Under the pieces are notes generated by a model that saw nothing but the letters and a program-made list of their open reading frames with translations, made no database searches and was not told the DNA's origin. Positions 21,970 to 49,970 of a DNA stretch of 54,299 nt are shown here, in pieces. Positions within the stretch are counted from its first letter, which is position 1. Every line of letters starts with the position of its first letter. Position numbers and translations under genes: made by a program. Origin of the DNA: Mycobacterium sp. (GTDB lineage: Bacteria; Actinomycetota; Actinomycetes; Mycobacteriales; Mycobacteriaceae); NCBI GenBank assembly GCA_011620645.1, contig WOYS01000076.1, positions 1-54,299 on the forward strand. The letters are read 5' to 3'.

Positions 21970-23186
21970 GGGTTGATCGTGTTCTCCCCCACTTGGCGTC
22001 CCCAGACGTACTCGGTCATCATCGGCTGGCCGAGTTCTAAGTGGTTGTACGGCGCGAGGCTGGCGCCGGTGTCCATCACCAGGTACGGCATTGGAAATAG
22101 GTCGCGGGTGATCGGCTGCCAGCAGCCGGGCCGCCCACCGGGTCCGCCTCGTGCGTTAACGCGAGGCAGGTTGTCCGGGAACACATATGGGTTTCCGGCG
22201 CCGAGCACCGAGGAACGCGTCCTCAGCGAGTAGCCGTTACCACCCAGCAGCGCGGCGAGTTTGGGCGCCACGTCGTGGATGTTGCGGACGGCGCAGAGTA
22301 ACTCGGGGCTGTAGTAGTCCAGCAACTTCGTGCTGGGCAGCAGATCCTCCGCACCGCGCACCAGATACGGGCCACCACGCTCGAAGATCTCGGCACCGGT
22401 GTTCCCAAAGCCGACCGCCGCCATCAGCGCCTGATCGATAGTGGCCCGCTCGTCATTGAAGGCCTGGGCGGTGGTGACCGCGTTGGCCAGGCCGTCGAAC
22501 AGGTCCGGCGCGGAATCGGAGTAGACACCGGCCAAATCCGCCAGGCCGGTGACATCACGACGGATCTGCGGCATCCGTGGATTCAGCTCGCCGAGAATGT
22601 CATTGCCGTCCACCAGGGACTGCCCGAACTTGTCGCCAAGTCCGTCGAGCGCCTGCGCGGCGGCAGTAAGGGTCTGGTTGAGCTTCACCGGATCAATCTG
22701 CTCGGAGATCTTCATGATCGTCTCGAACAGGGTGTTGAACTCGGTGGTCGTGCCGGAGGCCTCGATGTTCGCGCCGGCGGCCAGGCGAGTGGAGGCCGGG
22801 TTGCTCGGCGACAGGAAGGAGATGTACTTATTGCCGAAGACGGTGGTGGCCCGCAGTTCGGCCTCCACATTGGCCGGGATCAGCGACAGATACTTCGGGT
22901 CCACAGAAAGGGTGAGCTTAGCCTTGGGAACATCTCCGACGGTCACCACACCGGCCTTGGTGAGGCGCCCGATCGGCACCCCGTTGAAGGTGACCTTCGA
23001 GCCGGGGTCCATGGCCAGACCGGCACGTTCGGCCATCACCGTCAGCTGTACCCGCTTCTCGAAGACGCCGCGGAACTGCAGCCAGGTGAGGCCGAGGATC
23101 AGCGCACTGATCAGCAGGAGCACCAGACCGGCCAACTTGTAGGGCGGGGTCCTGGGCTTGTTGAGAGGCGCCCGTGATGTCGTCAT
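21966..23186 (-). CDS. mce1A: Mce1A, MCE family protein, apparently lacking a C-terminal hydrophobic stretch
   Basis: The start is ATG 23186 (MTTSRAPLNKPRTPPYKLAG), two bases after the yrbE1B stop; the longer frame upstream is a shadow of yrbE1B. The product is 406 residues with TM helix, MCE domain (RAGLAMDPGSKVTFNGVPIG ... VFGNKYISFLSPSNP), needle helices and the conserved end DTGASLAPYNHLELGQP ... VWGRQVGENTINP. Compared with the 454-residue M. tuberculosis protein as I remember it, a hydrophobic stretch of about 45 residues between NGYSLRT and NPYxxPxNLPRVNARGG is absent. The join is near 22193-22205. Whether other fast growers also lack it should be checked. Confidence 0.9.
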   Translation of the reverse strand: MTTSRAPLNKPRTPPYKLAGLVLLLISALILGLTWLQFRGVFEKRVQLTVMAERAGLAMDPGSKVTFNGVPIGRLTKAGVVTVGDVPKAKLTLSVDPKYLSLIPANVEAELRATTVFGNKYISFLSPSNPASTRLAAGANIEASGTTTEFNTLFETIMKISEQIDPVKLNQTLTAAAQALDGLGDKFGQSLVDGNDILGELNPRMPQIRRDVTGLADLAGVYSDSAPDLFDGLANAVTTAQAFNDERATIDQALMAAVGFGNTGAEIFERGGPYLVRGAEDLLPSTKLLDYYSPELLCAVRNIHDVAPKLAALLGGNGYSLRTRSSVLGAGNPYVFPDNLPRVNARGGPGGRPGCWQPITRDLFPMPYLVMDTGASLAPYNHLELGQPMMTEYVWGRQVGENTINP

Positions 23187-23188
23187 GG

Positions 23189-24058
23189 CTACACCGTGAG
23201 GTTGAAGTTCGGGTCGGTGCCGTACAGCGCCAACGAGGCCAACAGGACGACCACCACGATGGCGATCAGCGAGGTGCGCATCGAGCGACCCACCGCCTCG
23301 CCCACGCCCACCGCGCCGCCACTGGCGAAGTAGCCGAAGTAGCAGTGGTTCAACATGATGATCATCGACATGACGATCACCTCCAGGAACGACCACATGA
23401 CGTCGTCGACGCGGAGGAACGTGTGGAAGTAGTGCTCATAGGTACCGACCGACTGTGAATAGATCGCCGTAGTGACCAGCTGAGCGGACAGGAAGGACAG
23501 CAGGATCGCCATCGCGTAGAGCGGGACGATGACGATGGCGCCTGCCACCAGCCGGCTGGACACCAGGTACGAGATCGACTTGATGCCCATCACTTCCAGC
23601 GCGTCGATCTCCTCGCTGATGCGCATGGCGCCGAGCTCCGCGGTGGCGCCGGCGCCGACGGTGGCGGCCATGGCCAGCCCGGTGACGACGGGCGCGACGA
23701 CGCGGATGTTGGCCAGGGCGGCGAAAAAGCCGGTGAAGGCCTCGACACCGATATTGCCCAGGGAGGCGAAGCCCTGGATGGCGATCAGGGAGCCCGCCGA
23801 GAGCGTGACGAACCCGATGATCGCGACGGTGCCACCGATGACGGCCATCGCCCCGGTGCCCATGCCGATCTCGGCGACCAACCGCAGCGCCTCGCGGCGG
23901 TAATTCCTGAACGCGTGCGGCAGCGAGCCGACCGCCTGCACCACGAACCAGGCGACATGACCGATGCTGTCGAGGAACCGGGCCGGCACACCGGCGAACC
24001 CGCGGGTGCGGTTGAACGCGCGCGGGAAGCGTGTTCGCAGGACTGTAGCTGTACTCAT
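23189..24058 (-). CDS. yrbE1B: YrbE1B, Mce1 permease subunit (MlaE family)
   Basis: 289 residues, the normal length. An MlaE-type integral membrane permease with about five to six TM helices. The cytoplasmic signature EEIDALEVMGIKSISYLVSSR lies near the middle and would contact the ATPase MceG, encoded elsewhere. The ATG at 24058 is embedded in a 17-bp tandem duplication and overlaps the stop of a six-codon upstream ORF. An 83-bp gap separates it from yrbE1A, whereas I recall these genes being nearly adjacent in M. tuberculosis. Confidence 0.92.
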   Translation of the reverse strand: MSTATVLRTRFPRAFNRTRGFAGVPARFLDSIGHVAWFVVQAVGSLPHAFRNYRREALRLVAEIGMGTGAMAVIGGTVAIIGFVTLSAGSLIAIQGFASLGNIGVEAFTGFFAALANIRVVAPVVTGLAMAATVGAGATAELGAMRISEEIDALEVMGIKSISYLVSSRLVAGAIVIVPLYAMAILLSFLSAQLVTTAIYSQSVGTYEHYFHTFLRVDDVMWSFLEVIVMSMIIMLNHCYFGYFASGGAVGVGEAVGRSMRTSLIAIVVVVLLASLALYGTDPNFNLTV

Positions 24059-24080
24059 GCGTCAGCTGTACTCATGCGTC
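24047..24080 (-). repeat. 17-bp tandem duplication containing the yrbE1B start codon
   Basis: AGCTGTACTCATGCGTC occurs twice without mismatch (24047-24063 and 24064-24080). On the minus strand each copy carries ATGAGTACAGCT. The upstream ATG (24075) reads six codons, MSTADA, and its TGA (24055-24057) overlaps the real ATG (24056-24058). Confidence 0.9.
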
Positions 24081-24093
24081 AGCCTCGCAGGCT
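24081..24093 (-). promoter_or_regulatory. Hairpin covering the Shine-Dalgarno of the duplicated yrbE1B start
   Basis: AGCCT-CGC-AGGCT is a perfect 5-bp stem just upstream of the first duplicated ATG. On the transcript it includes GAGG, the only Shine-Dalgarno-like element before that ATG, so folding could limit initiation. Short stem; tentative. Confidence 0.3.
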
Positions 24094-24141
24094 CGGCGGC
24101 CGTATTCAGTGGCGATGGTTCGCTCGCAAGCTTTGCTCACG

Positions 24142-24939
24142 TCAGCGTCCCGTTCCGAAGCGGACGCCGATGGTGGTCAGCACCACGTTGACCGCGAACA
24201 GTGCGACCACGCAGAGCACCAGGGTCTCGTTCACCGCGGTCCCGACACCCTTCGGTCCGCCGGCGACGGTCAGTCCCCGGTAGCAGCCGACCAGCCCGGC
24301 GATGAGTCCGAACAGGGTGGCCTTGATGACCGAGATCAACACCTCCGGGAAACCGGTGAGCAGCGTCAGCGTGGAGACGTAGGCGCCGGCGTTGACGTTC
24401 TGGATGTAGACACCGAAGAAGTACCCGCCGACGAGGCCGATGGTGATCACCGCGCCGTTGAGCAGGAAGGCCACGAACGTTGCCGCGACGACACGGGGCG
24501 CGACGAGGCGTTCGATGGGGTCGATGCCGAGCACCTCCATGGCGTCGATCTCTTCGCGGATGGTACGGGCCCCGAGGTCGGCGCAGATGGCCGTGGATCC
24601 CGCACCCGCGACGACAAGCACGGTGACCAGCGGCCCGAGTTGGGTGACGGCGCCGAGCGCCGCGCCGGCGCCCGAGACGTCGGCCGCACCGAACTCGGCG
24701 AGCAGGATGTTGAGCGTGAAGATGATGAGCACCGTGAGCGGGATGGACACCGCCAGCGTCGGCAGGAACGCCACCCGGATCAGGAACCAGCTCTGCAGCA
24801 CGAATTCCTTGAACTGGAAGGGCCGGGTTACCAGTGCCTTACCGGTCAGCACGGACAGCTTGAAGAAACCGCCGGCCATGGTCAGCGGTTTGTCGAGCTG
24901 TTCCTTGCAGTAGTCGACCAGACCATTACCCACCGTCAC
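24142..24939 (-). CDS. yrbE1A: YrbE1A, Mce1 permease subunit (MlaE family)
   Basis: 265 residues, identical in length to the M. tuberculosis protein as I recall it. Multi-pass MlaE permease with the signature REEIDAMEVLGIDPIERLVAPR, GAGSTAICADLGARTI before it, and the conserved end VNVVLTTIGVRFGTGR. The start is GTG 24939. A 25-codon Arg-rich ORF ends 9 nt upstream, and the region before that carries a duplicated ATG segment. Together with YrbE1B it forms the inner-membrane channel of the Mce1 lipid importer. Confidence 0.92.
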   Translation of the reverse strand: MTVGNGLVDYCKEQLDKPLTMAGGFFKLSVLTGKALVTRPFQFKEFVLQSWFLIRVAFLPTLAVSIPLTVLIIFTLNILLAEFGAADVSGAGAALGAVTQLGPLVTVLVVAGAGSTAICADLGARTIREEIDAMEVLGIDPIERLVAPRVVAATFVAFLLNGAVITIGLVGGYFFGVYIQNVNAGAYVSTLTLLTGFPEVLISVIKATLFGLIAGLVGCYRGLTVAGGPKGVGTAVNETLVLCVVALFAVNVVLTTIGVRFGTGR

Positions 24940-24948
24940 CAGCGCACC

Positions 24949-25026
24949 TCAGAACCGAACCCGTCGCGTAGCGGCGCTACCTGTCGCACGCCCCCTCCTC
25001 GCCCTTGCACTAAACTCTGCGTTCAT
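24949..25026 (-). CDS. Possible 25-aa leader ORF before yrbE1A
   Basis: ATG 25026 opens a 25-codon frame (MNAEFSARARRGRATGSAAT, then RRVRF) with seven Arg, ending 9 nt before the yrbE1A GTG. A four-codon ORF (MNAE) from the duplicated upstream ATG 25040 ends in TGATG at this start. No clear Shine-Dalgarno precedes either ATG. It may be a leader peptide or chance; conservation would decide. Confidence 0.25.
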   Translation of the reverse strand: MNAEFSARARRGRATGSAATRRVRF

Positions 25027-25041
25027 CACTCTGCGTTCATG
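25014..25041 (-). repeat. 14-bp near-perfect tandem duplication upstream of yrbE1A
   Basis: ACTCTGCGTTCATC is followed directly by ACTCTGCGTTCATG (13 of 14 identical). On the minus strand each copy carries ATGAACGCAGAGT, so an initiation codon has been duplicated, as also seen before yrbE1B. Confidence 0.85.
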
Positions 25042-25061
25042 AGTGTGTGATGCTGGCCTAC

Positions 25062-25075
25062 CTACCGGTTGGTAG
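25062..25075. promoter_or_regulatory. Inverted repeat in the fadD5-yrbE1A gap
   Basis: CTACC-GGTT-GGTAG has perfect 5-bp arms and lies about 120 bp upstream of yrbE1A in a 287-bp gap that otherwise holds only the leader-ORF region. It could be a regulator site for an internal mce promoter. No clear -35/-10 pair was found beside it. Confidence 0.3.
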
Positions 25076-25226
25076 TAAGCTAGATCACAGGACTGTACCT
25101 TATCCGATACCGGCGGTATTGCACATTGGCTTTTCCACACCTCAACTGTTAGCCAAAGACATCAGTCCCGGTTTCCTCTCCGAAGCCGTTGCGGAAACCG
25201 TTGCCGAAGTAGAACTTTCGTCGGCG

Positions 25227-26423
25227 TCAATGAAGATCCACGCCGAAGACCGAGCGCAGTTCCGTCTTGAGGACCTTGCCCGACGGATTTCGGGGCAGCG
25301 CATCGACGATCTCCAGCGCCTTGGGGTGCTTGTACCTGGCTAACCTCTCGGTGAGGAAATCGTCGAGTTCGGCGAGCGTGAGTCGCGCCGCGGACAAAAC
25401 CACAACAGCGACCGGAACCTCGCCCCATTTCCGGTGCGGACGCCCGATCACCGCGACCTCGGCAATTGCCGGGTGAGCAGCCAGAACGTTCTCCACCTCC
25501 GCGCAGTAGATGTTCTCGCCCCCGGAGATGATCATGTCCTTCTTACGGTCGACTACCCAGATGTAACCCTCCTCGTCCTGGCGAACGAGGTCGCCGGAGT
25601 GGAACCAGCCGCCCGCGAACGACTCGGCGGTGGCCTTCGGGTTGTTCCAGTAGCCCGACATCAGGGTCGGCGCACGGTAGACGATCTCGCCGACCTGACC
25701 GATCTGGACCTCGTTCATATCCTCGTCGACGATGCGGGCCGATACCGTCGGGATGACCCGACCGACCGAGCCGAGCTTGCGAATTGCATCGTCCCCCAAC
25801 AACATACAAGTCACCGGGGACATCTCGGTCTGACCGAATGCGGCGAGGATAAGGGCGCCGGGGAAGGTTTCGGCCATGTCCTTCAGCAACGTGTCGGATG
25901 CTGGCGCCGCACCCCAGGAGAGCACCCTCAGTCGGAGGTTGCGCGGCTGTGCGCGCTGGGCCGCACAGACTGCCTGCCACTGCGCGGGCACCAGGAAGAT
26001 GCCGGTCACTTCCTCGGCCTGAAGCACGTCGAGCAGGGCTCCCGGGGTCATCCGGAAGTTCACCGGGACCGCGATGGCGCCGAGCCGGTTGGCGGCCAGG
26101 AAGGACTCGACGAACTCGGTGCGGTTGAGCATCAGGATGAGCACCCGGTCCCCGGGTCCGACACCGCGTCGCTGCAGCGCCCCGGCCAGTTTGGTGACCC
26201 GCTCGTCGAGTTCGGCCCATGTGGTGGTGTGGCCGAGAAATCTCAGCGCCGTCTTTCCCGGCTGCATCATTGCGTGCCGGGCCAGCTGGTTGGACCAGTT
26301 CTGCTGACGGGCGAGATAGGGCTGTTCGGTCTGAGCGGTCAACGCGAAGGCTCTTTCGATCGGGATGCGCAACGGGCCTGCGCAATGTCTATGTTTGGTC
26401 CAACAGTGCGTCGCCGCGGTCAC
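25227..26423 (-). CDS. fadD5: FadD5-like acyl-CoA synthetase with in-frame internal deletion
   Basis: 398 residues against about 554 for M. tuberculosis FadD5. The N-terminus (QPYLARQQNWSNQLARHAMM, GDRVLILMLNRTEFVESFLA) and the C-terminal half (SWGAAPAS, AFGQTEMSPVTCML, GGWFHSGDL, DRKKDMIISGGENIYCAEVE, PRNPSGKVLKTEL) are well preserved. The text jumps from VNFRMTP (to residue 127) to GALLDVLQAEEVTGIFLVPA. About 140-150 residues are missing, including the YTSGTTGxPKG AMP/ATP-binding loop. The frame is intact, but the enzyme should not adenylate fatty acids. GTG 26423 is the longest start; TTG 26372 is a shorter option. It heads the mce1 operon. Confidence 0.85.
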   Translation of the reverse strand: MTAATHCWTKHRHCAGPLRIPIERAFALTAQTEQPYLARQQNWSNQLARHAMMQPGKTALRFLGHTTTWAELDERVTKLAGALQRRGVGPGDRVLILMLNRTEFVESFLAANRLGAIAVPVNFRMTPGALLDVLQAEEVTGIFLVPAQWQAVCAAQRAQPRNLRLRVLSWGAAPASDTLLKDMAETFPGALILAAFGQTEMSPVTCMLLGDDAIRKLGSVGRVIPTVSARIVDEDMNEVQIGQVGEIVYRAPTLMSGYWNNPKATAESFAGGWFHSGDLVRQDEEGYIWVVDRKKDMIISGGENIYCAEVENVLAAHPAIAEVAVIGRPHRKWGEVPVAVVVLSAARLTLAELDDFLTERLARYKHPKALEIVDALPRNPSGKVLKTELRSVFGVDLH

Positions 26424-26448
26424 ATTATGGCGACACCGGGATCGGCGG

Positions 26449-26889
26449 TTATGCGCTGAGCGCTTCGGCGCGGGTCTTCAGATTGCCGGCCAGGTGCTCG
26501 AGTGCGTCGTTCGCGACCTTCTTGACCATCATCGCCGGGATCCCCGCCATGGACACCTCGACATCCATGTCCACGGTGAGCAGGCTCGTCGGGCCCATGT
26601 CGACGACGGCAAACAGCTGCTCCTGCTTGGAGAACAGGTTGCCCTGCTGCATCACGGTCTGGATCTGGTTGTCGCCCGGGTAGTACACGGCCTGGATATA
26701 GGTGCCGTCCATGCCGGCCACCGTGGTGTCCAGCCGCAGCTGGCTGGGGCGGCCATCCTCGTACCGGGCCAGCACCCACGCGCCGGTGACCTCTTCGTTC
26801 CACTGCGGGTAGGCCTCGAAGTCCGCGACGATCGCCATGATCGCGGCGGCAGGTGCGGAGACCTCGACGGTCTTGCTGACGATCGGCAT
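26449..26889 (-). CDS. SRPBCC-fold protein (TB18.5/Rv0164-like)
   Basis: 146 residues forming a START/polyketide-cyclase-like fold. MPIVSKTVEVSAPAAAIMAI begins it, with the family pattern DFEAYPQWNEEVTGAWVLA near 25-45 and the long C-terminal helix KKVANDALEHLAGNLKTRAE. It probably binds a hydrophobic ligand; no enzymatic residues are evident. By synteny it is the counterpart of Rv0164. The mce1R gene expected between it and fadD5 is missing: only 25 bp separate the two. Confidence 0.82.
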   Translation of the reverse strand: MPIVSKTVEVSAPAAAIMAIVADFEAYPQWNEEVTGAWVLARYEDGRPSQLRLDTTVAGMDGTYIQAVYYPGDNQIQTVMQQGNLFSKQEQLFAVVDMGPTSLLTVDMDVEVSMAGIPAMMVKKVANDALEHLAGNLKTRAEALSA

Positions 26890-26974
26890 TCGGCGAGCAT
26901 ATCGGGGTCGCCCGCTGCGTTGGCTCTGCGGTGAGGGTGCGGCCCACTCGCACTTCCCCGCCCGGAATGCCGAG

Positions 26975-27412
26975 TCAATCGGTCACGGCGGTCTGCAGCA
27001 GTGTCCGGATCTCGGCCGGAATCGGGACGGGGCGCCGGCTCTCGCGGTCGACGTACACGTGCACCCAGCTGCCGGCGGCGGCCAACCGGGCGTCATCCTT
27101 GGCCCACAGCCCGGTGCGGTAGGTGACACTGCTGTTGCCCAGCCGGGTGACCGCGAGTCCGACCACCAGGTCCGAGGGGAACTTCAGCTCGGCGAAGTAG
27201 CGGCAGCTCGATTCGGCGACCATTCCCAGGCAGGGCGCGGTCGCCGCGTCGACGCCGGCCCGGGTGCCGATCCAGGCGTTGATGGCGGTGTCGAACAGTT
27301 CGTAGTACACCGCGTTGTTTAGATGCCCGAACATGTCGTTGTCGGTCCACCGCGTCTGCACCGGCCAATGCACACCGAAGTCCGCAGTCGACAGTTCCAT
27401 GCCGGCAAGCAT
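26975..27412 (-). CDS. Acyl-CoA thioesterase, hotdog fold (Rv0163-like)
   Basis: Start at ATG 27412 (or ATG 27400); the longer open frame runs antisense through the alcohol dehydrogenase and is rejected. The product is about 145 residues. The 4HBT signature is clear: VQTRWTDNDMFGHLNNAVYY with the catalytic Asp, then ELFDTAINAWIG and SSCRYFAELKFPSDLVVGLA. It likely hydrolyses acyl-CoA thioesters of unknown chain length. It is divergent from the alcohol dehydrogenase with only 14 bp between starts. Confidence 0.85.
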   Translation of the reverse strand: MLAGMELSTADFGVHWPVQTRWTDNDMFGHLNNAVYYELFDTAINAWIGTRAGVDAATAPCLGMVAESSCRYFAELKFPSDLVVGLAVTRLGNSSVTYRTGLWAKDDARLAAAGSWVHVYVDRESRRPVPIPAEIRTLLQTAVTD

Positions 27413-27426
27413 GTCAGGCTGGCACC

Positions 27427-28512: not shown

Positions 28513-28571
28513 GCGTCGTCGAGCCGACAGGTTGCAGCGGTGCAGCTATCACATGGCGTAACCGGGCGATC

Positions 28572-30269
28572 TCAAAACCAGCTGTTCTGCATCTCCAGCG
28601 TGGTGCGATCCAGGCTCTGCAGCAACTCCAATTGCGCTGCGGTCTTGGGCAGTTCATACCGGAAGAAAAACCGGGCCGCCTGGCGCTTGCCCTCGTAGAA
28701 ATCGTCATCCCGGCCATTGCTGGCGAGGTACTGCTCCAGCCAGACCCAGGCGATGACGATGTGGCCGAATGCCTCCAGGTAGATCGCGCTGTTGGCCATC
28801 GCCGCCGTGAGGTCCCCGGACCCGAGCATCGTGGTCGTCACCGACACCAGCCGCTGCCAGGCGGCTTCCAACTGCGCCGCGAGAGGCTCGTCCCCGGCAG
28901 CGGCCACCGTCGCGGCGATCCGCTCCGACAGCGCCGCCAGACTTGCCCCGCCATTCTGGGTCACCTTGCGACCCAACAGGTCCAGGCTCTGAATCCCGTG
29001 CGTGCCCTCGTGGATCGGGTTGAGCCGGTTGTCGCGGTAGTGCTGCTCGACGTCGTACTCGCGGGTGTAGCCATAGCCGCCGAGCACCTGGATCGCCAGG
29101 CTGTTGGCCTCCAGGCACCACTGTGACGGCCAGCTCTTGGCGATCGGTGTCAGGATGTCCAGCAGCGCTGACTCCTCCAGATCGGCCAGCCGCGCGCAGT
29201 ACAGCGCCAGCCCGAGCGCACCCTCCACATATGCCTTCTGGGCCAGCAACATCCGCTTCACATCGGCGTGTTCGATGATCGGCACCTGCGGGCTGGCGGG
29301 ATCCTTCACCAAGCGGCCCTGCGGACGCTCCCGGGCGTATGCGAGTGACTTGAGATAGCCGGTGTACCCCAGCGCCACCGCGCCCATCCCGACCCCGAGT
29401 CGGGCCTCGTTCATCATGTGGAACATGTAGACCAGACCGCGATGCGGTTCGCCGACGAGATACCCGGCCGCACCGTCGAAATTGAGCACGGTGTTGCTGA
29501 TACCGCGTTGGCCCATCTTGTGATTCAGGCCCGAGATGGCCACGCGGTTGCGGGTACCGTCGCCCAGGAACTTGGGCACGATGAACAGTGAGATGCCCTT
29601 GGTGCCGGCAGGCCCACCCGGGATCTTGGCCAGTACCAGGTTGACGATGTTCTCCGAAAGTTCGTGCTCGGCACCCGAAATCCACATCTTGGTGCCCGAT
29701 ACCCGGTAGCTGCCATCGGGCTGCGGCTCGGCGCGGGTGGTGATATCGGCCAGCGAAGACCCGGCCTGGGTCTCCGAGAGCGCCATGGTGCCGGTGAACC
29801 GGCCCGCCAGCATCGGTTTCACCCACGCTTCGATCTGCTCGGCGCTGCCGAACCTGCCGATCAGGTTCGCGTTGGCGATGGTCAGCATCAGGTACCCGGA
29901 GGTACTGGTGTTCGCCGCGGAGATCCATGCAAAACCGGCCTGCGCGACGGTGGCCGGGAGCTGCGCGCCGCCGAGCTCGGCGTCGAAGCTCATACCCAGC
30001 AGGTCGGCCTTGGCGAAGGCCTCGATGGCGGTCTTGACCTCGGGGATGACGGTGACCGTGGTGCCGTCGAACTGAGGCTCATGCGCATCGCTGAGCTTGT
30101 TGTGCGGCGCAAAGTACCGCTCCGCCAGCTGCTCGCACAGGTCCAGCACGCCGTCGAAGGTCTCCCGGGAGTGCTCGGCGAACCGCGGCCGGGCGATCAG
30201 CTCCTCCACGTGCAGCCATTCGTAAAGCAGGAAGTCCAGGTCGCGGCGCGAGAGGATGGTCGACTTCAT
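28572..30269 (-). CDS. Long acyl-CoA dehydrogenase with C-terminal extension
   Basis: 565 residues, longer than the usual 380-400, belonging to the ACAD group with an extra C-terminal helical domain. FAD/substrate motifs are present: [52 protein letters not shown], and [20 protein letters not shown] followed by [20 protein letters not shown], where the Glu near 425 is a candidate catalytic base. A 130-residue tail follows, with the acetyl-CoA-dehydrogenase C-like pattern. It is probably co-transcribed with the TetR gene and the SDR remnant upstream. The physiological acyl-CoA is unknown. Confidence 0.85.
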
Positions 30270-30305: not shown

Positions 30306-30452
30306 TCAGCGGATGGTGCTGACGCCCCCGTCGACCGGGATCACCGCACCGGTGATGTAGCTGCTGGCGCGACTGGCGAGGAACACGCCGATCCCGCGGC
30401 CGCCGCCGGTGACGACCGCGACCTTGCCGTCGAGGGAGAAGAGATCCGTCAT
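30306..30452 (-). pseudogene. SDR gene remnant: both ends retained, catalytic core deleted in frame
   Basis: A 48-codon open frame begins MTDLFSLDGKVAVVTGGGRG (the SDR cofactor-binding start) and jumps near 30384-30392 to VFLASRASSYITGAVIPVDG, ending GVSTIR (the typical SDR C-terminus). About 200 residues with the NAG, Ser and YxxxK motifs are missing, yet no stop or frameshift was introduced. Its ATG overlaps the TetR stop as ATGA, so the full gene was once the middle member of a tetR-SDR-acyl-CoA dehydrogenase operon. Confidence 0.8.
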
Positions 30453-35908: not shown

Positions 35909-36493
35909 TCAGGCCCGCATTCCGAAGGTCAGCAGCGTGGCCAGCTCGGCATACGCTGCGGCGTCGCTGAGGCCCGTCGCCGTCCGGACGCCGCGCTGCT
36001 GGATGCGCACCATCATCGTCGCTATGAGATCCGCGGCGAATGCGGCATGCACATCGCGGAACGCCCCGGCCTCGACGCCCTCCTCGATCAGTTGGCGCAC
36101 CCGTAGCGCGGCCGCACGGGTATTGGCCTCATAGACCTCGCGAGCCGGGGCGAATGCGTTCAGATCTGACATGAACACGTCCGACGCGATGGCCAGCTCG
36201 TCACCGACGGCGACGAGATACGCCGAGATGCGTCCGCGGGGGCTCTGCGCCTCCGCCAGCGTAGCTTCTACCGCGTTCGTGGCGCGCTTGAAGAAGTGGA
36301 TCGTGACGTGCCGGACCAACTCGTCCTTGCTGGCAGCCAGCGTGTAGAGCGTGGATTTCGAGCACCGCAGCCTGGACGCGATCCCGTCCAGGGTCAGCTG
36401 ACTGAAACCCTCGGCCAGGAACAGGATCAACAACTCGTCGAACAACGCCGTCCGCCGCCGCGTCGCGAAGCCACTGTCGGCAAGATCGGACAT
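35909..36493 (-). CDS. TetR family regulator, divergent from acyl-CoA dehydrogenase
   Basis: 194 residues. HTH at about 14-60 (RRTALFDELLILFLAEGFSQ, then RLRCSKSTLYTLAASKDELV). The C-terminal domain ends AYAELATLLTFGMRA. It is divergent from the acyl-CoA dehydrogenase at 36553, with an imperfect palindrome at 36522-36541 between them. It is likely a repressor of that gene and itself. It converges on pntB with 13 bp between stops, leaving no room for a conventional terminator. Confidence 0.83.
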   Translation of the reverse strand: MSDLADSGFATRRRTALFDELLILFLAEGFSQLTLDGIASRLRCSKSTLYTLAASKDELVRHVTIHFFKRATNAVEATLAEAQSPRGRISAYLVAVGDELAIASDVFMSDLNAFAPAREVYEANTRAAALRVRQLIEEGVEAGAFRDVHAAFAADLIATMMVRIQQRGVRTATGLSDAAAYAELATLLTFGMRA

Positions 36494-39081: not shown

Positions 39082-39869
39082 CCGGGGTGCTGGCGGGGGC
39101 GTGGAATTTTCGTGATGTCGCCGAGTCCGCCGGCATCCGGCCGGGCCGGTTGTTCCGGTCCAGCGAACTGAGCCGCCTCACCGACGAAGGTGGTGCGGCC
39201 ATGCTCGCCCTCGGCATCAACGATGTCGCCGATCTGCGCTCACGCCGCGAACTGGATCGTCGCGGCCCCGGCCAGGTGCCTGCGGGTGTTGCGTTGCACC
39301 ACTTGCCGTTCCACTTCGAGGACGACTCCGAGCAGGACGCCCCGCACGAGGCCACCTTCCAGCGGGTGATGGCGGAATCACCCGACGGGGAGGATGTCGC
39401 CGAGTCCGCCAAGCGGTACATGACCGAGGTGTACGAGGAGTTCCCGTCGCTGACCGGTGCTCAGGTGGCGGTGCGCCAGGTGATCTCACTGCTGGCCGCC
39501 GGCCGGCCGGTGATCGCGCACTGTTTCGCGGGTAAGGACCGCACCGGGTTCACCGTTGCCACGGTGCTGGAGGCCGTCGGCGTTCCGCGCGAGGCGATCC
39601 TGACCGATTTCCTGCGCAGTAATGACGCCATAGACTCGCTGCGCGACAGCATCATGGAGTCGGTCAAGGCCCGTGCCGGCGAGGCGCCCGAGGTCCTGAC
39701 CTTCGCCGAGGCCAGGCTCACCGACGCGGTGCTCGGCGTGCGTGCCGAATACCTCTCCGCGGCGAGCCGCAAGGTCGACGAGATCTACGGTTCGGTGAAC
39801 GGCTTCCTGGCGGCCGCCGGCGTGACCGACGAGGATCTCGCTCGGCTGCGTTCGGCCCTCACCGAGTGA
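39078..39869 (+). CDS. ptbB: Tyrosine phosphatase PtbB-like (MptpB family)
   Basis: 263 residues, GTG start overlapping the fadE2 stop. The P-loop HCFAGKDRTGF places Cys149 as nucleophile and Arg155 as phosphate ligand; the Lys-Asp inside the loop is the MptpB signature for triple-specificity (pTyr, pSer/Thr, phosphoinositide) phosphatases. NFRDVAESAGIRPGRLFRSS is the conserved start. There is no signal peptide; the M. tuberculosis homologue is secreted without one. The stop codon is the first part of a palindromic repeat that probably terminates transcription. Confidence 0.88.
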   Translation: MTGVLAGAWNFRDVAESAGIRPGRLFRSSELSRLTDEGGAAMLALGINDVADLRSRRELDRRGPGQVPAGVALHHLPFHFEDDSEQDAPHEATFQRVMAESPDGEDVAESAKRYMTEVYEEFPSLTGAQVAVRQVISLLAAGRPVIAHCFAGKDRTGFTVATVLEAVGVPREAILTDFLRSNDAIDSLRDSIMESVKARAGEAPEVLTFAEARLTDAVLGVRAEYLSAASRKVDEIYGSVNGFLAAAGVTDEDLARLRSALTE

Positions 39870-40456
39870 TTTCGGCGTGATCGGACGCGCTCAGCGCAGC
39901 GAATCACGCCGAATGGCAGCTCGGATCTGGCCAGTACCCGCTCCGGATACGCGGTGAGGTCCAGCCAGGTGAACCGCAGCACCTGCCAGCGCATCAACAT
40001 GATCTCGTTCTGGCGTTCCCGGTCGTGCTGGAAGTCGGCACGATCGCTGTGAAATGCCCAACCGTCGACCTCGATGGCCACGCGGTGCTTGGGAAAGGCG
40101 AAATCCACCCGGTACCGGCCGACCTTGTAGTTCGTCCGCCAGCCGGTGAGCGATGCGCTTCTGAGTAGTTGCGCGAGCAGTCGTTCCGCTTGCGACCGTG
40201 CCCCGTCATCTGCCGCCTGGAGTAATCGGCGCGCCGCCGGGGCGCCGTACCGCCCCTTGTGCCGCAGGTGCGACCGCCACAATTCGGACAACGGGATCTG
40301 TTGTTGCAAAGCAGAATCCATGATGGCACTGCCACCGCCGCGTAGCGCCGCAGCCTCGACCACCGTCAAGGTGAGCGCGGTTACCCGCAGTCCGCGCCGC
40401 TCGACCACATCCGGTCGCCCCAGATCGCGTCGCCGGACCCGAGTGCCCGCGTGCAT
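39785..40456 (-). pseudogene. DUF559 endonuclease-like gene fragment, 5' end lost
   Basis: From ATG 40456 (MHAGTRVRRRDLGRPDVVER) the product resembles the C-terminal two thirds of mycobacterial DUF559 (Vsr/restriction-endonuclease-like) proteins. Core: GRYRVDFAFPKHRVAIEVDG, HSDRADFQHDRERQNEIMLM, WQVLRFTWLDLTAYPERVL, which keeps the Asp, Glu-x-Asp and Gln-type residues of the fold. About 80 N-terminal residues present in relatives are absent. The similarity ends near 39915, after which the frame runs through a palindromic repeat and antisense into ptbB. Both borders coincide with copies of the same repeat. Confidence 0.65.
39868..39916. repeat. Palindromic repeat copy A (probable bidirectional terminator)
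   Basis: The left arm GATTTCGGCGTGAT and right arm ATCACGCCGAA pair over 11 bp around a 21-nt centre that itself contains GCGC-TCA-GCGC. It starts within the ptbB stop codon and ends where DUF559 similarity ends. It is the same element as copy B (3 differences in the 21-nt centre), with the outermost three bases of the right arm lost. Confidence 0.8.
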
Positions 40457-40458
40457 GC

Positions 40459-40507
40459 GATTTCGGCGTGATCCGACGCGGTCAGCGCAACGAATCACGC
40501 CGAAATC
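40459..40507. repeat. Palindromic repeat copy B
   Basis: Perfect 14-bp arms GATTTCGGCGTGAT and ATCACGCCGAAATC flank a 21-nt centre. It lies exactly between the truncated 3' end of the DUF456 gene (stop 40509-40511) and the truncated 5' end of the DUF559 fragment (ATG 40456). I recall similar palindromes between mycobacterial genes as terminator-like elements; here it marks a deletion join. Confidence 0.8.
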
Positions 40508-40508
40508 A

Positions 40509-40769
40509 CTAGCTGACCACCAGGCTCAAGGTGCCGACCTCCGCCCCGCGCATCCTGCGGACCGGCCAGAGGTACTTGATCACTTCGGCGGTCAGGTACA
40601 GCACCCACGCGACGCCGAGGGTCACCCAGGCGACCACACCGCCCTCGATCACCGCCCAGGTCGTGATGGCCCCAATGACCAGCAGCCCGCCGGGCAGGAT
40701 CGGGATCACGATACCGGCCAGACCGATGGCGATAACCAGGGCCACCAGAACGACGCCGAAGGTGCTCAC
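40509..40769 (-). pseudogene. DUF456 membrane protein, 3' half missing
   Basis: 86 codons from GTG 40769 with GAGGGG just upstream. MSTFGVVLVALVIAIGLAGI and LPGGLLVIGAITTWAVIEGG, then VTLGVAWVLYLTAEVIKYLW and PVRRMRGAEV, match the first half of DUF456 proteins (about 160 residues). After RRMRGAEV the text departs (GTLSLVVS) and stops immediately before repeat copy B, so the last two or so TM helices are missing. It might still make a short membrane peptide, but it is most likely a truncated gene. Confidence 0.65.
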
Positions 40770-40785: not shown

Positions 40786-40874
40786 CTACGCGCCGAGCTG
40801 TCGGGCCAGGTCGGGAAAGCAGATACCGGCCAGCCCGTCGGTACCTTCAGGGCTTGTGCGACAAGAGCTTTCAT
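40786..40874 (-). pseudogene. Possible quinone-oxidoreductase (Rv0149-like) remnant
   Basis: An ATG at 40874 overlaps the stop of the SDR gene as ATGA and begins MKALVAQAL, a typical MDR/quinone-oxidoreductase N-terminus; in M. tuberculosis Rv0149 follows Rv0148. The frame degenerates after about ten codons, while another frame reads LAGICFPDL, close to an internal family segment (AGVCFPDL), before a stop at 40786. Fewer than 90 bp remain of a gene of about 970 bp. The evidence is thin. Confidence 0.3.
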
Positions 40875-41734: not shown

Positions 41735-41766
41735 TACGTTCCTCTCCTGATTGGTCAATCCGTCGG

Positions 41767-43170: not shown

Positions 43171-43211
43171 CGGAGCGTCCTTCCAAGCCGAGGAATTCCC
43201 ATCCTAGCCAT

Positions 43212-43255: not shown

Positions 43256-43290
43256 GTTCCCAATTCAGCCGGCGGACAACCGAGCGCAGG

Positions 43291-44291
<1,001 letters not shown>

Positions 44292-44297
44292 CTACCG

Positions 44298-44331
44298 AAT
44301 AGTTAAGGCGGCCTAATAGTTAAGGCAGCCT
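44298..44331 (-). repeat. 17-bp tandem duplication before the methyltransferase start, iron-box-like
   Basis: AATAGTTAAGGCGGCCT is followed by AATAGTTAAGGCAGCCT (one difference). The downstream copy with the next bases, 44320-44338, matches 13 of 19 positions of the IdeR/DtxR box TTAGGTTAGCCTAACCTAA as I recall it. The IdeR reading is tentative; the duplication itself is plain. Confidence 0.6.
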
Positions 44332-44364
44332 AGCCTTGGACCGGCCCCGGCCCTGGGAGACCAG

Positions 44365-45000
44365 TTACTCCGACAGTGTCCACAGCTTGTTAGCCATCAT
44401 CAGCTCCAACTGAGCCACCACGGCCTCCAACTCTTTATGTGACCCGACGCAACCGGCGTAGAAACCCATCCCCCACATCACCGCGACCAGCATCTCCACC
44501 AACGCGGGAACGTCGGTTACGGCGGTTAGCTCACCACGTTCTATTGCATCGCCGACGGCCCACGCGACGAAGGCGCGGGAGTTCGCCAGCGGGTCGTGGT
44601 CATCCTGGACAAGCTCGGGGTGCCGCTGCGCCTCCAGCACCGAGGTCACCAGGAAGGCGGCGACGGAACGATCGTTGCTTTCGGCCTGTATGGCGATCGA
44701 GAAGAATGCCGAGAGCTTCTTCAGCAGCGTCGGCTCCGACCTGGCTTTCTCCACCCCGGCACGCACCACGACGGCGTTGGTGTGCGCGACGACTTCCTGG
44801 TACAGCAGCCGCTTGCTCTGGAAATAGTGGTTGATCGCCGGCCGGGTCAGATCCGAGCGAACCGCGATCGCCTGGAATGTTGCTGCGTTATAACCGAGTT
44901 CGCTGAATACCTCCCGCGCGGCCTGCAGGATTCGCTCGCGGGTTTCTGCTGCCTTCGCGGCAGGCGGGCGACCCGGACCTCTGCTGGCTGTATGCGGCAC
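44365..45000 (-). CDS. TetR family regulator (Rv0144-like)
   Basis: GTG 45000 gives 211 residues beginning MPHTASRGPGRPPAAKAAET; a CACAAT sequence six bases before it may be a -10, making the mRNA leaderless. HTH at about 20-66 (RERILQAAREVFSELGYNAA, then IAVRSDLTRPAINHYFQSKR). The C-terminal ligand domain ends ELEAVVAQLELMMANKLWTL. It lies upstream of the methyltransferase on the same strand. Its target is unknown; neighbouring lipid-aldehyde genes are candidates. Confidence 0.8.
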   Translation of the reverse strand: MPHTASRGPGRPPAAKAAETRERILQAAREVFSELGYNAATFQAIAVRSDLTRPAINHYFQSKRLLYQEVVAHTNAVVVRAGVEKARSEPTLLKKLSAFFSIAIQAESNDRSVAAFLVTSVLEAQRHPELVQDDHDPLANSRAFVAWAVGDAIERGELTAVTDVPALVEMLVAVMWGMGFYAGCVGSHKELEAVVAQLELMMANKLWTLSE

Positions 45001-45096
45001 AGTCAAATTGTGCCACAGATCACCCGCCTCACTACTGTCGGATGGTTGCGAAGCAACGATGAAATTGCATTGTAGCAAACATGCGCTCCGAGCCGT

Positions 45097-45174
45097 TCAG
45101 CGCACCCAGTACGGCGTGAGCGCGTTCGGCGGCAGCGGGCCGGTTGCGTCGTGGTTGTTCGCTAGACCGACGAT
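45097..45174 (-). pseudogene. Possible 3' remnant of an unidentified gene after ptsI
   Basis: Immediately after the ptsI stop and in the same frame, 25 codons read IVGLANNHDATGPLPPNALT then PYWVR before a TGA. The text looks protein-like rather than random, as a C-terminal end would, but I cannot name the family. It may be the tail of a deleted gene. The rest of the 174-bp gap to the TetR start shows nothing else. Confidence 0.25.
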
Positions 45175-46857
45175 CTATCTCAGTACGGCAAGTGCCGCGG
45201 ACCTCGCATCCGCGGCATTTGCCGTCAGCAGCACCGCCTGCGCCGCGGCACGGCAACGCTCCAGCGTCACTCCGGCAAGCCCGGCGCCCACTCCGGGCAC
45301 CGCGGTGGCCGCCGCCGACAGCGATGTCACGCCCATCCCCACCAGTACGCAGGCCAGCAGCGGATCGGCGGCCGCCTCACCACATACGCCGACCGGCTTG
45401 CCTGCGGCCGCACCCGCGCGGGCGGTGATATCGACCAGCACCAGAACGCCGGGCTGCCACGCATCGGTCAGCGCGGCGAGTTCGGCCGACATTCGGTCGG
45501 CGGCCATCGTGTACTGAGCCAGGTCGTTGGTGCCGATCGACAGGAAGTCCACATGCTCGAGGATGTGGCTTGCCAGCAGCGCTGCGGCAGGTATCTCGAT
45601 CATCACGCCGGGCGTCAACCCGAAGGAACGGGCCTCCGCGGCAAAGCTTTTCGCCTCGTCCGGAGTCGCGATCATCGGTGCCATCACCCACGGCCTGCTG
45701 TCGGTGGCCTGCGCCGCCGCCGCGATCGACTCGAGCTGACGGCTCAGCAGACCGGGGTTGCCGAACGAGATCCGCACCCCGCGCACACCCAGCGCCGGAT
45801 TGGCCTCGTCCGGGTGCCCGGCGAACTTGAGCGGCTTGTCCGAGCCGGCGTCCAACGTGCGGATGACGACCTTGCGCCCCTCGAATGCGGACAGCACCTC
45901 GCCGTAGATCCGGGCCTGCTCGGCCACTGACGGTTCGGTGTCACGGTTCAGAAAACACAGTTCGGTGCGGAACAGTCCGACGCCCTCGGCCGGAGTCTGG
46001 CCGGCCGCACGGGCGGCCGCGCCGTCCTGGACATTGGCCAGCACCGCAACGGCGTGCCCGTCGGCGGTGGCGCCCGGCCCCGTCCACTGCGCGATCCGTT
46101 CACCCTCCAGGCGCGACGTCTCGACGGCGCGCTGCGCCTCGGCGGCATCCGGAAACACCGTCACCGTGCCACGGGAACCGTCGACCATGACCGGTGCCCC
46201 GACCGGTACGGCGTCGAGTCCGGCCACGGCCACCACGCAGGGGATGCCGAGTTGGCGGGCGATGATCGCGGTGTGACTGGTCGGGCCGCCGAGGGTGGTG
46301 GCCAGCGCCACCACCAGCGTGGGATCAAGGCCTGCGGTGTCCGCGGGCGCGAGATCCTCGGCGCACAGCACCGACGGCACATCGGGTACCGGCACGCCGG
46401 GCTCGGGCAGACCGGCCAGCTCGGCCAGCACCCGATCGCGGACGTCGCGCAGGTCGGTCACCCGCTCGGCCATCAGGTCACCCGCCTTGGCCAGGGCCTC
46501 GGCGATCTTGGCGATCGCGCCGCCGACCGCCTGCTCGGCCGCACTGCCAGTGGTGATCCGCTTCTCCGCATCGCCGAGCCAGGCGCGGTCCTGCGCCAGG
46601 GACGCGGTGGTGGCCAGCACCTCCGAGGCGACCCCGGTCGCGTGCCCGGCCCGCTCGCGCAGCCGGTCGGCGACCGCAGCGGCGGCCTCCTTCATCCGGG
46701 TGACCTCGCCCGGGCGGGCGGCCTCGTCGATCTCCACGGGTTCCGCTTGCGCGGCGGGGGGCCGCGCCCCCGGCCTGATCACCGGGGCGTAGGCCACTCC
46801 GGCCACCACCGGAACCCCGGTCAGAACCTGTGTCTCGGCCACGGATGAAGTGCTCAT
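45175..46857 (-). CDS. ptsI: PTS enzyme I
   Basis: 560 residues from ATG 46857. It transfers phosphate from phosphoenolpyruvate to HPr. The phosphorylated His lies in LGGPTSHTAIIARQLGIPCV. The PEP-binding barrel shows RTLDAGSDKPLKFAGHPDEA, NPALGVRGVRISFGNPGLLS and the second signature DFLSIGTNDLAQYTMAADRM. Complete. It is divergent from deoR-fruK-fruA-ptsH. The -10 TAATCT ends eight bases before the ATG, so the transcript is probably leaderless. The genes it would serve include a broken fruA. Confidence 0.92.
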   Translation of the reverse strand: MSTSSVAETQVLTGVPVVAGVAYAPVIRPGARPPAAQAEPVEIDEAARPGEVTRMKEAAAAVADRLRERAGHATGVASEVLATTASLAQDRAWLGDAEKRITTGSAAEQAVGGAIAKIAEALAKAGDLMAERVTDLRDVRDRVLAELAGLPEPGVPVPDVPSVLCAEDLAPADTAGLDPTLVVALATTLGGPTSHTAIIARQLGIPCVVAVAGLDAVPVGAPVMVDGSRGTVTVFPDAAEAQRAVETSRLEGERIAQWTGPGATADGHAVAVLANVQDGAAARAAGQTPAEGVGLFRTELCFLNRDTEPSVAEQARIYGEVLSAFEGRKVVIRTLDAGSDKPLKFAGHPDEANPALGVRGVRISFGNPGLLSRQLESIAAAAQATDSRPWVMAPMIATPDEAKSFAAEARSFGLTPGVMIEIPAAALLASHILEHVDFLSIGTNDLAQYTMAADRMSAELAALTDAWQPGVLVLVDITARAGAAAGKPVGVCGEAAADPLLACVLVGMGVTSLSAAATAVPGVGAGLAGVTLERCRAAAQAVLLTANAADARSAALAVLR

Positions 46858-46864
46858 GTGATTC

Positions 46865-46892
46865 AGATTACTAGAAAGTATTGACGCGTCAA
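46865..46892 (-). promoter_or_regulatory. ptsI promoter, overlapping a palindromic operator
   Basis: On the minus strand TTGACG (46887-46892) and TAATCT (46865-46870) are 16 nt apart, and ATG 46857 follows seven bases after the -10. The -35 is half of the palindrome at 46881-46892. Confidence 0.55.
46881..46892. promoter_or_regulatory. Perfect 12-bp palindrome TTGACGCGTCAA, candidate DeoR/FruR operator
   Basis: TTGACGCGTCAA is perfectly symmetric and lies in the AT-rich 100-bp gap between ptsI and deoR. It presents a TTGACG hexamer on each strand, so a bound regulator could block both promoters at once. Confidence 0.55.
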
Positions 46893-46957
46893 CAGATTCA
46901 AGCGTAAAACCACATATATCAACATTTGAGCCTATGGGCTCGCCCGAACGGAGACCG

Positions 46958-47737
46958 ATGTACGCCGAGGAACGCCAGCACGCCATCGCCGCATTGGTGA
47001 TGCAGCAGGGGCGTGCCTCGGTCACCGAACTGGCACAGACCTACGACGTCACCACCGAAACGGTGCGCCGCGATCTCGCCGTCCTGCACAAGGCCGGGCT
47101 GCTGCGGCGGGTACACGGCGGCGCCGTCCCGGCCGGCGCTCTGCACCTGGTCGAACAGGATGTCGGGGAACGCGAGGCCACCCGCTCGGCGCACAAGGAC
47201 GCCATCGCCGCCGCCGCGATCGATGTCTTCCCGGCCGGCGGCGCCAGCGTGCTACTCGATGCCGGCACCACCACCAGTCGCGTCGCGGCGCTCATTCCGA
47301 CCGACCGCGAACTCGTCGTCGTCACCAACTCGGTGCCGGTGGCCGCCCGGCTGTCCACGGTGCAGTCGGTCTCCCTACACCTGCTGGGCGGGCGGGTCCG
47401 CGGCCTCACCCAGGCCACCGTCGGCGCGCAGGCGCTGCAGACCCTGGAACACCTCCGGGTGGACATCGCCTTCATCGGTACCAACGGCATCACCGCCCGG
47501 CACGGCTTGTCCACCCCCGACAGCGAGGAGGCCGCCATCAAACGCGCCATGGTCCGTTGCGTGAACTACGTTGTGGTGGTCGCCGATTCGTCGAAGGTCG
47601 GCCACGAGGAACTCCACAGCTTCGCACCGATCTCCAGTGTCGACGCACTGATCACCGATACCGAGATTCCCGACGCCGCACGTGATGAACTCGTCGGCCT
47701 CGGCATCGAAGTCACCTGTGCAGGAGCATCCACATGA
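46958..47737 (+). CDS. DeoR family regulator of the fructose PTS
   Basis: ATG 46958 has GGAG four bases upstream; ATG 46934 is an alternative. 259 residues. The N-terminal winged helix is MYAEERQHAIAALVMQQGRA with TELAQTYDVTTETVRRDLAV, the DeoR signature. The C-terminal sugar-phosphate sensor shows LLDAGTTTSRVAALI, VTNSVPVAARLS, AFIGTNGI and VVVADSSKVGHEELHSFAPI. The likely effector is fructose 1-phosphate. It overlaps fruK (ATGA) and shares a gap with ptsI that holds a perfect palindrome. Confidence 0.88.
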   Translation: MYAEERQHAIAALVMQQGRASVTELAQTYDVTTETVRRDLAVLHKAGLLRRVHGGAVPAGALHLVEQDVGEREATRSAHKDAIAAAAIDVFPAGGASVLLDAGTTTSRVAALIPTDRELVVVTNSVPVAARLSTVQSVSLHLLGGRVRGLTQATVGAQALQTLEHLRVDIAFIGTNGITARHGLSTPDSEEAAIKRAMVRCVNYVVVVADSSKVGHEELHSFAPISSVDALITDTEIPDAARDELVGLGIEVTCAGAST

Positions 47738-48711
47738 TCGTCACGGTCACACCAAATCCCAGCATCGATCGCACCGTCACCCTGCCCGGGACACTCACCC
47801 GTGGTGCGGTACACCGGGTGAGTTCGGTGACCGATGAACCCGGCGGCAAGGGCGTCAACGTGGCGCGCGCACTCGGCCTTGCCGGCCTCGACGCATTGGC
47901 CGTGCTGCCCGCTGCCGATGGCGATCCGATACTGGCCGCACTGCGCGCCGCCGGCGTCCCGTTCGCCACGGTGCCCATCCAAGCAGCGGTGCGCACCAAT
48001 CTCGCTATCATCGAAAGCGATGGCACCACAACCAAACTCAACGAACCGGGTGCGGCCCTGGGCGCAGAGGCGCTGGCCGCGCTGGTCCGCACCGTGGTGG
48101 AGGCCGCGCACCGTGCGGAGTGGATCGTCCTGTCCGGATCGCTGCCGCCGGGGGCGCCGGACGACTGGTATGCCGATGTGGTCGCTCAGCTCGCGGGACA
48201 GAACTGCCTGGTTGCGGTCGACACCTCCGATGCCCCACTGGCCGCGCTGGCCGCCGCTTTTGGTCAGGCGGCCCCCGATATCATCAAGCCGAACGCCGAG
48301 GAGCTCGCCGGTCTGACCGGAACCTCCGCTCAGGTCCTGGAAGACGCAGCCGCCCAAGGTGATCCGATGCCGGTGATCGCGGCCGCGCGCCAGCTGGTCG
48401 ACCGCGGCGCGCGCACCATACTCGTGACGTTGGGAGCGGCCGGGGCAGTCCTGGTGGAACCGTCCGGCAGCTGGCTGGCCGCATCCCCCCCGATCACCCC
48501 GCACAGCACCGTCGGCGCAGGCGACTCCGCACTCGCCGGCTATGTGCGGGCGGCGCTGTCGGGTGCGGATGCCCCCGATCGGCTGCGGATGGCCGTCGCC
48601 TACGGCAGCGCCGCGGCATCTCTGCCCGGGTCCGCACTGCCCTCGCCTGATCAGATCGATCTCAAAGCCATACCAGTGCAATCTATTTCACTGTCTCGGT
48701 CCGACTCCTAG
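47734..48711 (+). CDS. fruK: 1-phosphofructokinase
   Basis: 325 residues of the PfkB family, phosphorylating fructose 1-phosphate to fructose 1,6-bisphosphate. [15 protein letters not shown] is the typical FruK start, [13 protein letters not shown] the substrate-binding glycines, and [15 protein letters not shown] contains the catalytic Asp of the GAGDS motif. Complete. It lies between deoR (4-bp overlap) and fruA (16 bp downstream). Without a working EIIC its substrate supply is uncertain. Confidence 0.92.
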
Positions 48712-48727
48712 TATCAGAAGGTTATCC

Positions 48728-49594
48728 ATGTCCAGTTCACTGCCGGTCATCACGACCGATCTCGTGCTACTCGACGCCGATGCGGGCGCCGACAAGCAGG
48801 CAGTCATCGCCCGCATCGCGGGATTGCTGGCGGGAGTCGGCCGCACCACCGACGCCGATGGGCTGATCGCCGCGGCGATGGCGCGTGAGGCGCGGTCCGC
48901 GACCGGATTGCCGGGCGGGATCGCCATCCCGCACTGCCGCTCCCCGTATGTGGACACCCCGACCATCGGTTTCGCTCGTCTGCAACCCAAGGTCGACTTC
49001 GGCGCGCCGGACGGTCCGGCCGATCTGGTGTTCCTCATCGCCGCACCGGATTCCGGCGGTGCCGAGCAGATGAAGTTGCTGTCCAGCCTGGCCCGCGCTC
49101 TGGTGCGCAAGGAGTTCGTCGCATCGCTGCGCTCGGCAGGCACGGCCGGTGACCTGGTCGCGCTGGTGGAAGGAATGGTCAATCCGGCATCCGCGCCCGC
49201 CCCGGCGCCGGCGGCCAAGAAGAGCATCGTCGCGATCACGGCCTGCCCCACCGGAATCGCGCACACCTACATGGCGGCCGATGCGCTGAAACTGGCCGCC
49301 GAACGCGCCGATGTCGATTTCGTGGTGGAGACCCAGGGTTCCTCGGGCAGCACTCCCCTGCCCGCGTCGACCATCGCCGCCGCCGATGCCGTCATCTTCG
49401 CCACCGATGTGGGCGTCAAGGACCGCGGCCGGTTCGCCGGCAAACCGATGATCGCCGAAGCCGTTGCCGCCGCGGATAACCCGAAGGCGGCCCGGGTGGA
49501 GGGCAACGCCGCTGCCGACAGCGGCACCGAGGGTTCCTCGAACGTCGGCTGGGGCACCCGCACCCGACAGATCCTGCTCACCGGCGTGAGCTAG
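48728..49594 (+). CDS. fruA: Fructose PTS EIIA-EIIB part of FruA, truncated by frameshift
   Basis: 288 residues from ATG 48728. The EIIA domain (about 1-150) has its phospho-His in [20 protein letters not shown]. An Ala/Pro linker leads to the EIIB domain (about 160-260) with phospho-Cys in [20 protein letters not shown]. The EIIC domain begins [15 protein letters not shown] and is cut off at once by TAG 49592-49594. The cause is visible: AGCT is duplicated (GAGCTAGCTAC where GAGCTAC is expected), a 4-bp insertion. EIIA and EIIB may be made as a soluble protein, but transport needs EIIC. Confidence 0.85.
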
Positions 49595-49595
49595 C

Positions 49596-49970
49596 TACAT
49601 GATCCCGTTCGTCGCGGCCGGCATGGTGCCGCCGCTGGCCATGGCGCTCGCGACGACGATCCGCCCGGGCCTGTTCAGCGAGCCGGAGAAGGAGAACGGC
49701 CGCGCGGCTTGGCTTCTCGGCTCCTCGTTCATCTCCGAGGGCGCCATCCCGTTCGCGGCGGCCGACCCGCTGCGGGTCATCCCGTCGATGATGTTCGGCG
49801 GTGCCATCACCGGCGCGCTGTGCATGGCGTTCGGCGTGACCCTGCGGGCCCCGCACGGCGGAATCTTCGTGTTCTTCGCGATCGGCAACCTGGCGATGTT
49901 CCTCATCGCTCTCGTGGCCGGAACGGTCATCTCCGCTTTGGCGGTCGTCTCCGCCAAGCAGTTCATCACG
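49596..49970 (+). pseudogene. FruA EIIC fragment with internal deletion
   Basis: In the frame after the 4-bp duplication, YMIPFVAAG continues directly to MVPPLAMALATTIRPGLFSE and on through GASFISEG-like text (GSSFISEGAIPFAAADPLRV, RAPHGGIFVFFAIGNLAMFL) to AVVSAKQF at about 49965. Complete EIIC domains have roughly 200 or more residues between IPFVAAG and MVPP. The join is near 49612-49622 in a GCGGCCGGC run. The natural stop is also missing: the frame stays open into ptsH. It is not expected to function. Confidence 0.8.

Follow-up and report, generated by a model that had tools for sequence, protein, structure and literature searches.

The window analysed here is a stretch of 54,299 nucleotides from Mycobacterium sp. 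(GenBank assembly GCA_011620645.1, contig WOYS01000076.1). It forms part of a contig of 79,785 bp (C126) of the genome referred to below as G000, the Mycobacterium assembly that holds the window. Among its genes are mce1A, fadD5, a gene encoding an SDR protein, and fruA. A first-pass annotation of this DNA had claimed that genes in the window repeatedly lose their interiors while both ends are kept, naming fadD5, the SDR gene, the EIIC part of fruA and, as probable, mce1A. This observation was partly confirmed. Three of the four named genes hold, and their interior deletions are real sequence differences from the relatives.

The G000 assembly comprises 3,976,197 bp in 128 contigs (completeness 100, contamination 5.2%). 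At 3.98 Mb, the genome is clearly smaller than those of five congeners (6.0-6.7 Mb) that were among the best matches of fadD5 or SDR DNA, namely G096 (6.7 Mb), which served as the main reference, G034, G198, G200 and G121. Among the matches listed, one other near match to the 101-bp side of the fadD5 query was a genome of 5.0 Mb (G183); congeners of about 4 Mb exist and gave weaker matches to this query. For the FadE protein encoded at 28572-30269, the closest named record is from M. aurum (88% identity; records of the genome itself were possibly left out). A FadE 77% identical to that of the window is encoded on a contig titled as a Bifidobacterium breve metagenome-assembled genome (L034), a title that is probably wrong. 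Among the papers listed by literature searches, none was recognised as dealing with this organism.

Genes and deletions in the window

The window is collinear with G096, at 80-89% identity in blocks of at least 1 kb and 72-93% in shorter blocks, and in many places along the alignment it is the shorter of the two. Across its span, 46 of 90 G096 genes are present at full length, 40 are absent, three are interior-deleted and one is partial. As a control, G034 was found to align with positions 5,026-24,979 of G096 as one block and to be shorter than G096 by at least 100 bp in three places (25,339-63,630), compared with 10 places for the window (about 5.8-63.6 kb). In one stretch of 56 G096 genes, G034 has 54 and G000 has 31, two of them interior-deleted; 23 of the 54 genes held by G034 are absent from G000. 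The affected features are collected in Table 1.

Table 1. Shortened, missing and intact features of the window (positions in the window)
Feature	Position	Strand	Details
Lost mce1A-mce1B spacer	21963..21970	-	65-bp deletion at 7-bp repeat
mce1A, full length	21966..23186	-	406 codons; Mce domain matches; alignment with G096 and G034
fadD5 remnant	25227..26372	-	381 codons; join inside 26034-26054
mce1R and flanks, missing	26438..26465	.	727 bp net
SDR remnant	30306..30452	-	48 codons; join inside 30375-30392
DUF456 protein, N-terminal part	40509..40769	-	85 of 160 residues
Missing DNA, most of two G096 genes	40813..40829	.	1574 bp
fruA 5' piece (EIIA, EIIB)	48728..49594	+	stop made by GCTA tandem duplication at 49590-49597
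fruA in-frame deletion	49439..49462	+	45 bp; 8-bp repeat TGATCGCC
fruA 3' piece	49599..49991	+	start and end of EIIC around 639 missing bp; join 49613-49621, 8-bp repeat GCGGCCGG

The claim that fadD5 is hollow with its frame kept was borne out. Both ends are present, and 151 codons (453 bp) are absent in frame; in the G096 protein these lie between RMTP and GALLDVL, and they include the YTSGTTGRPKG stretch of the AMP-binding domain. Matches to the later AMP-binding and the C-terminal domains persist in the kept part, whose end comes about 20 residues before that of the G096 protein. A query spanning the join was matched by 375 of 395 other congeners, and no match crossed the join among the matches listed, best first, where a join-crossing match would have ranked. 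The script that measured joins gave a deletion of 454 bp with a 1-bp repeat. Since the two proteins differ by exactly 151 codons, these values were taken as an alignment-gap effect, and a repeat of 7 bp was found against G096 by reading.

The same claim holds for the SDR gene, which encodes 48 residues versus 258 in G096 and G034, with 630 bp missing in frame. Residues 1-26 and 20-48 of the remnant align with opposite ends of the 258-residue protein. The gene is whole in all four relatives searched (G034, G198, G200 and G121) and, of six named relatives, at the loci of all but one (L006), which is without it.

In fruA, three lesions were found: the 45-bp deletion, a 4-bp tandem duplication and the 639-bp deletion. 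The middle of the EIIC part is missing, as had been noted, but the gene's frame had been described imprecisely. Across the join the frame is unbroken (639 = 3 x 213), and the stop comes from the GCTA duplication just before it. For the 3' piece itself, no Pfam domain was matched. Of 24 other Mycobacterium genomes, 12 match the two sides of the join separately, with the same 8-9-bp overlap; the remaining 12 gave no match or only short ones. None of the relatives examined was seen to carry an identical short form of the hollow genes.

By contrast with these three, mce1A was ruled out as a hollow gene. It aligns over all its codons with its counterparts in G096 and G034, of 406 codons each, and the only loss is in the spacer to mce1B. 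Because 65 bp of this spacer are gone, the stop of mce1A overlaps the start of mce1B by ATGA. The complete absence of mce1R, also claimed earlier, was upheld, as the gene was not found in G000 and is present in G096, G034 and the loci of six named relatives.

The DUF456 gene was rightly described as truncated. Next to it, a DUF559/REase_MTES_1575 protein is encoded at 39785-40498, mostly inside a 641-bp stretch without a match in G096. Where Rv0149 (a putative label from the earlier annotation) would stand, all that is left of two G096 genes is a few tens of bases. At 35909-36493, a TetR-family gene with no match among the compared G096 genes stands where G096 has three other genes.

Absent and truncated genes in five regions

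Is interior loss a rule in this genome? Five regions were compared, amounting to 394 kb of G096 versus about 289 kb of G000 (C126 8-77825, C67 26829-120152, C98 17395-93494, C30 1-14349 and C40 30075-57006). They cover five of the 128 contigs and only the parts collinear with the G096 stretches. Genes were called with a codon-usage script written for this analysis, and a gene was counted as full when 85% or more of it was covered.

Among 365 G096 genes, 239 are full, 110 absent, 13 partial and three interior-deleted. Recurrent interior loss therefore stands for the three genes of the window, with their kept ends and missing middles, but not as a rule in the regions compared, given three cases in 365 versus 110 absences. 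When the same deletions were placed at random, 8.9 +- 2.4 interior cases were obtained over the five regions and 3.8 +- 1.6 on C126 alone, versus three seen. The observed count is thus no excess, because random placement gives as many or more. All three cases lie on C126 (3 of 117 genes versus 0 of 248 elsewhere; Fisher P 0.03, in a test chosen after seeing the data). Truncated genes, partial and interior-deleted together, number 16, whereas none of 2000 random placements gave fewer than 49. Of 108 breakpoints, 26 lie deeper than 45 bp within a gene, versus 90.7 +- 3.8 under random placement.

Losses were also more numerous and larger than gains when lengths were compared with G096, G000 being shorter in 54 places (126 kb) and longer in 13 (21 kb). 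An M. aurum locus (L001) bears on the direction of change for the 25 G096 genes absent from the 56-gene stretch. This locus has five of them (mce1R and four beside the SDR gene), is without eight, and has no coverage of 12. Whether a gene was lost here or gained in the relative is established for some absences only.

Possible origins of the deletions

Several joins carry the mark of direct repeats that are present in the undeleted relative and of which one copy is left. These are the 639-bp and 45-bp deletions of fruA (8 bp each; chance of at least 8 bp, 0.00035 and 0.001 [0.11%], respectively), the mce1A-mce1B spacer (7 bp; chance of at least 7 bp, 0.0009) and, against G096 only, fadD5 (7 bp, chance 0.2%; 3 bp against G034, chance 8.6%). 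The SDR join has a repeat of 3 bp, which is not beyond chance (7.9%). Judged from these repeats, deletion between direct repeats of 7-8 bp is supported for three or four of the freshest joins. Among 13 clean joins measured by the script, repeats reach at least 7 bp in two and 0-3 bp in ten. The nine clean joins besides the fresh ones overlap by 0-3 bp, no more than chance, and may be older and worn, or made otherwise.

The lesions of fadD5 and fruA look recent relative to the split from G096, because the ratio of nonsynonymous to synonymous substitution (dN/dS) in their kept pieces is 0.06-0.18, the highest value being that of the fadD5 N part against G096, compared with 0.05-0.13 in intact neighbours. 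The 45-bp deletion of fruA may date from a time when the gene still functioned.

Real deletions could also have been made by Ku/LigD end joining of double-strand breaks, a possible but somewhat doubtful origin. Ku is present in G000, the overlap of 0-3 bp at nine clean joins suits end joining, and a filled-in overhang could account for the 4-bp duplication in fruA. However, Ku was found equally in the four relatives searched (five of five genomes), and repeats of 7-8 bp, as at fresh joins here, far exceed what chance would give. In the part available of a report on M. smegmatis, neither Ku/LigD nor RecA nor RecBCD was needed for the precise deletion of DNA between direct repeats of 38 bp (PMC3519483). 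Together with the 7-8-bp repeats, this Ku/LigD-independent deletion, though seen there with longer repeats, argues for slippage over end joining at the fresh joins. The earlier proposal of deletion by microhomology or non-homologous end joining (NHEJ) is therefore sustained in its first half, for the joins at which repeats were found, and NHEJ was not shown.

The Ku of G000 (L168, C30) ends in KAEPKRTAARK, without the long tail, rich in lysine and alanine, that the Ku of G096 has. Its 980-residue open frame was considered as a Ku fusion and rejected, because the additional residues precede the point at which Ku usually starts and the Ku portion resembles that of G096. Loss of NucS as a cause was likewise rejected, NucS being present in G000 as in the four relatives searched.

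The first-pass annotation had offered systematic mis-assembly of high-GC DNA as an alternative, in which GC-rich gene interiors were dropped and contig ends joined by chance overlaps. Such an artefact would be in keeping with a draft assembly of 128 contigs with some contamination, with the short overlaps at several joins and with short forms found in no other genome examined. It is nevertheless quite unlikely and was not supported. The missing DNA is not richer in GC than the kept DNA (0.679 versus 0.677, or 67.9 versus 67.7%), and windows of at least 75% GC make up 9.1% of the missing versus 9.7% of the kept DNA, so GC dropout was rejected. Mis-assembly would leave undecayed fragments, and for this reason the rarity of truncated genes relative to random loss counts against it. 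Furthermore, the parts of rpoB that are matched are those matched in two relatives, rpoC is full against G096, ftsZ is as in two relatives, and fruA bears further lesions beside its large deletion. Collapse of repeats, with the middles placed on other contigs, was rejected as well: elsewhere in the assembly, the fadD5 middle gave 11 short matches only (longest 69 bp), the fruA middle a single 36-bp match and the SDR middle no match, a positive control having been run for SDR alone.

That the genes are kept as working short proteins, selected for in-frame loss of their middles, is highly improbable: the deletion lengths, each a multiple of three, and the low dN/dS of the kept pieces are in its favour, but fadD5 is without its YTSGTTGRPKG stretch, 48 of 258 SDR residues remain, fruA is frameshifted, and the low dN/dS is equally explained by recent loss.

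A probable genome reduction

The reading preferred here, to which we give a probability of about 70%, is a real and ongoing reduction of a mycobacterial genome, with older losses of whole genes and three recent interior deletions by short-repeat slippage. Older events would have taken out whole genes or blocks, leaving few remnants, and would now be seen as absence. Three recent events would then have removed the interiors of fadD5, the SDR gene and fruA, which were presumably dispensable. For the recent deletions, the most probable origin is slippage or annealing at short direct repeats during replication, for which NHEJ would not be needed. Because most of the difference from the relatives consists of whole genes that are missing, the pattern points to ordinary genome shrinkage and to no special process of gene hollowing. 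The hollow genes are probably an ordinary sign of a genome in reduction, that is, ordinary decay, and a few fresh joins still show readable repeats.

The three gene-interior deletions longer than 100 bp are all multiples of three, which has a chance of 1 in 27. This may be chance, or it may reflect mild selection against polar effects in operons; as a mark of selection it is a hint at most.

Several points weigh against this account of reduction. The joins are known from assembled sequence alone, in a draft with 5.2% contamination, and most clean joins have an overlap of only 0-3 bp. Matches from blastn tend to stop where conserved coding sequence ends, so that too large a share of breakpoints is placed at the ends of genes, and old remnants may have decayed past detection. 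Part of the difference is gain in G096 (eight genes, block 48550-56291, absent from the M. aurum locus). Values of dN/dS between the window and G096 exceed those between G096 and G034 in six of six comparisons, perhaps through slightly relaxed selection. Lastly, with three interior deletions the numbers are too small for a test of frame.

Mycobacterium leprae has lost a large share of its genome and carries many pseudogenes. A large loss would be shared with G000, but in place of many pseudogenes, 16 truncated genes stand here against 110 absent ones among 365. If reads agree with the assembly, this would be a case of a mycobacterium that shrinks mainly by gene-sized deletions and not by the build-up of pseudogenes. 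A wider scenario can be drawn, unlikely by our own estimate, in which roughly one third of the genome of a mycobacterium from the neighbourhood of M. aurum was lost through deletions the size of genes, few pseudogenes being left and GC and dN/dS changing only slightly, unlike M. leprae. Interior deletions would persist in frame in this scenario, since an out-of-frame deletion would shut off the genes that follow in the operon.

Reductive genome evolution has been described in the symbionts of vesicomyid clams. According to the part of that report available, clades with lost repair genes show lower GC and larger genetic distances, and short repeats may help reduction, alongside a "-independent DNA deletion", a phrase whose start is missing (PMC5310779). 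Gene loss during ongoing reduction is shared with these symbionts, as far as that text goes. The GC of G000 is 0.2-1.8 points below that of the fetched G096 stretches in all five regions, so that, in contrast to the lower-GC clades, GC is only slightly down here and dN/dS slightly up (PMC5310779). The likeness to the M. smegmatis system, in the portion of its report at hand, is that sequence between direct repeats was deleted in a mycobacterium, there independently of NHEJ, homologous recombination and single-strand annealing; its repeats were engineered and 38 bp long, whereas those here are natural and of 3-8 bp (PMC3519483).

Two further observations were made on contig C98. The largest gain seen is a stretch of 14.9 kb at G000:C98:38869-53901 (L130-L131), which has no match in the G096 stretch and is flanked by G096-collinear genes. 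At G000:C98:93505-97214, several mutually similar stretches match one part of G096 at 68-76% identity, perhaps as a tandem gene family.

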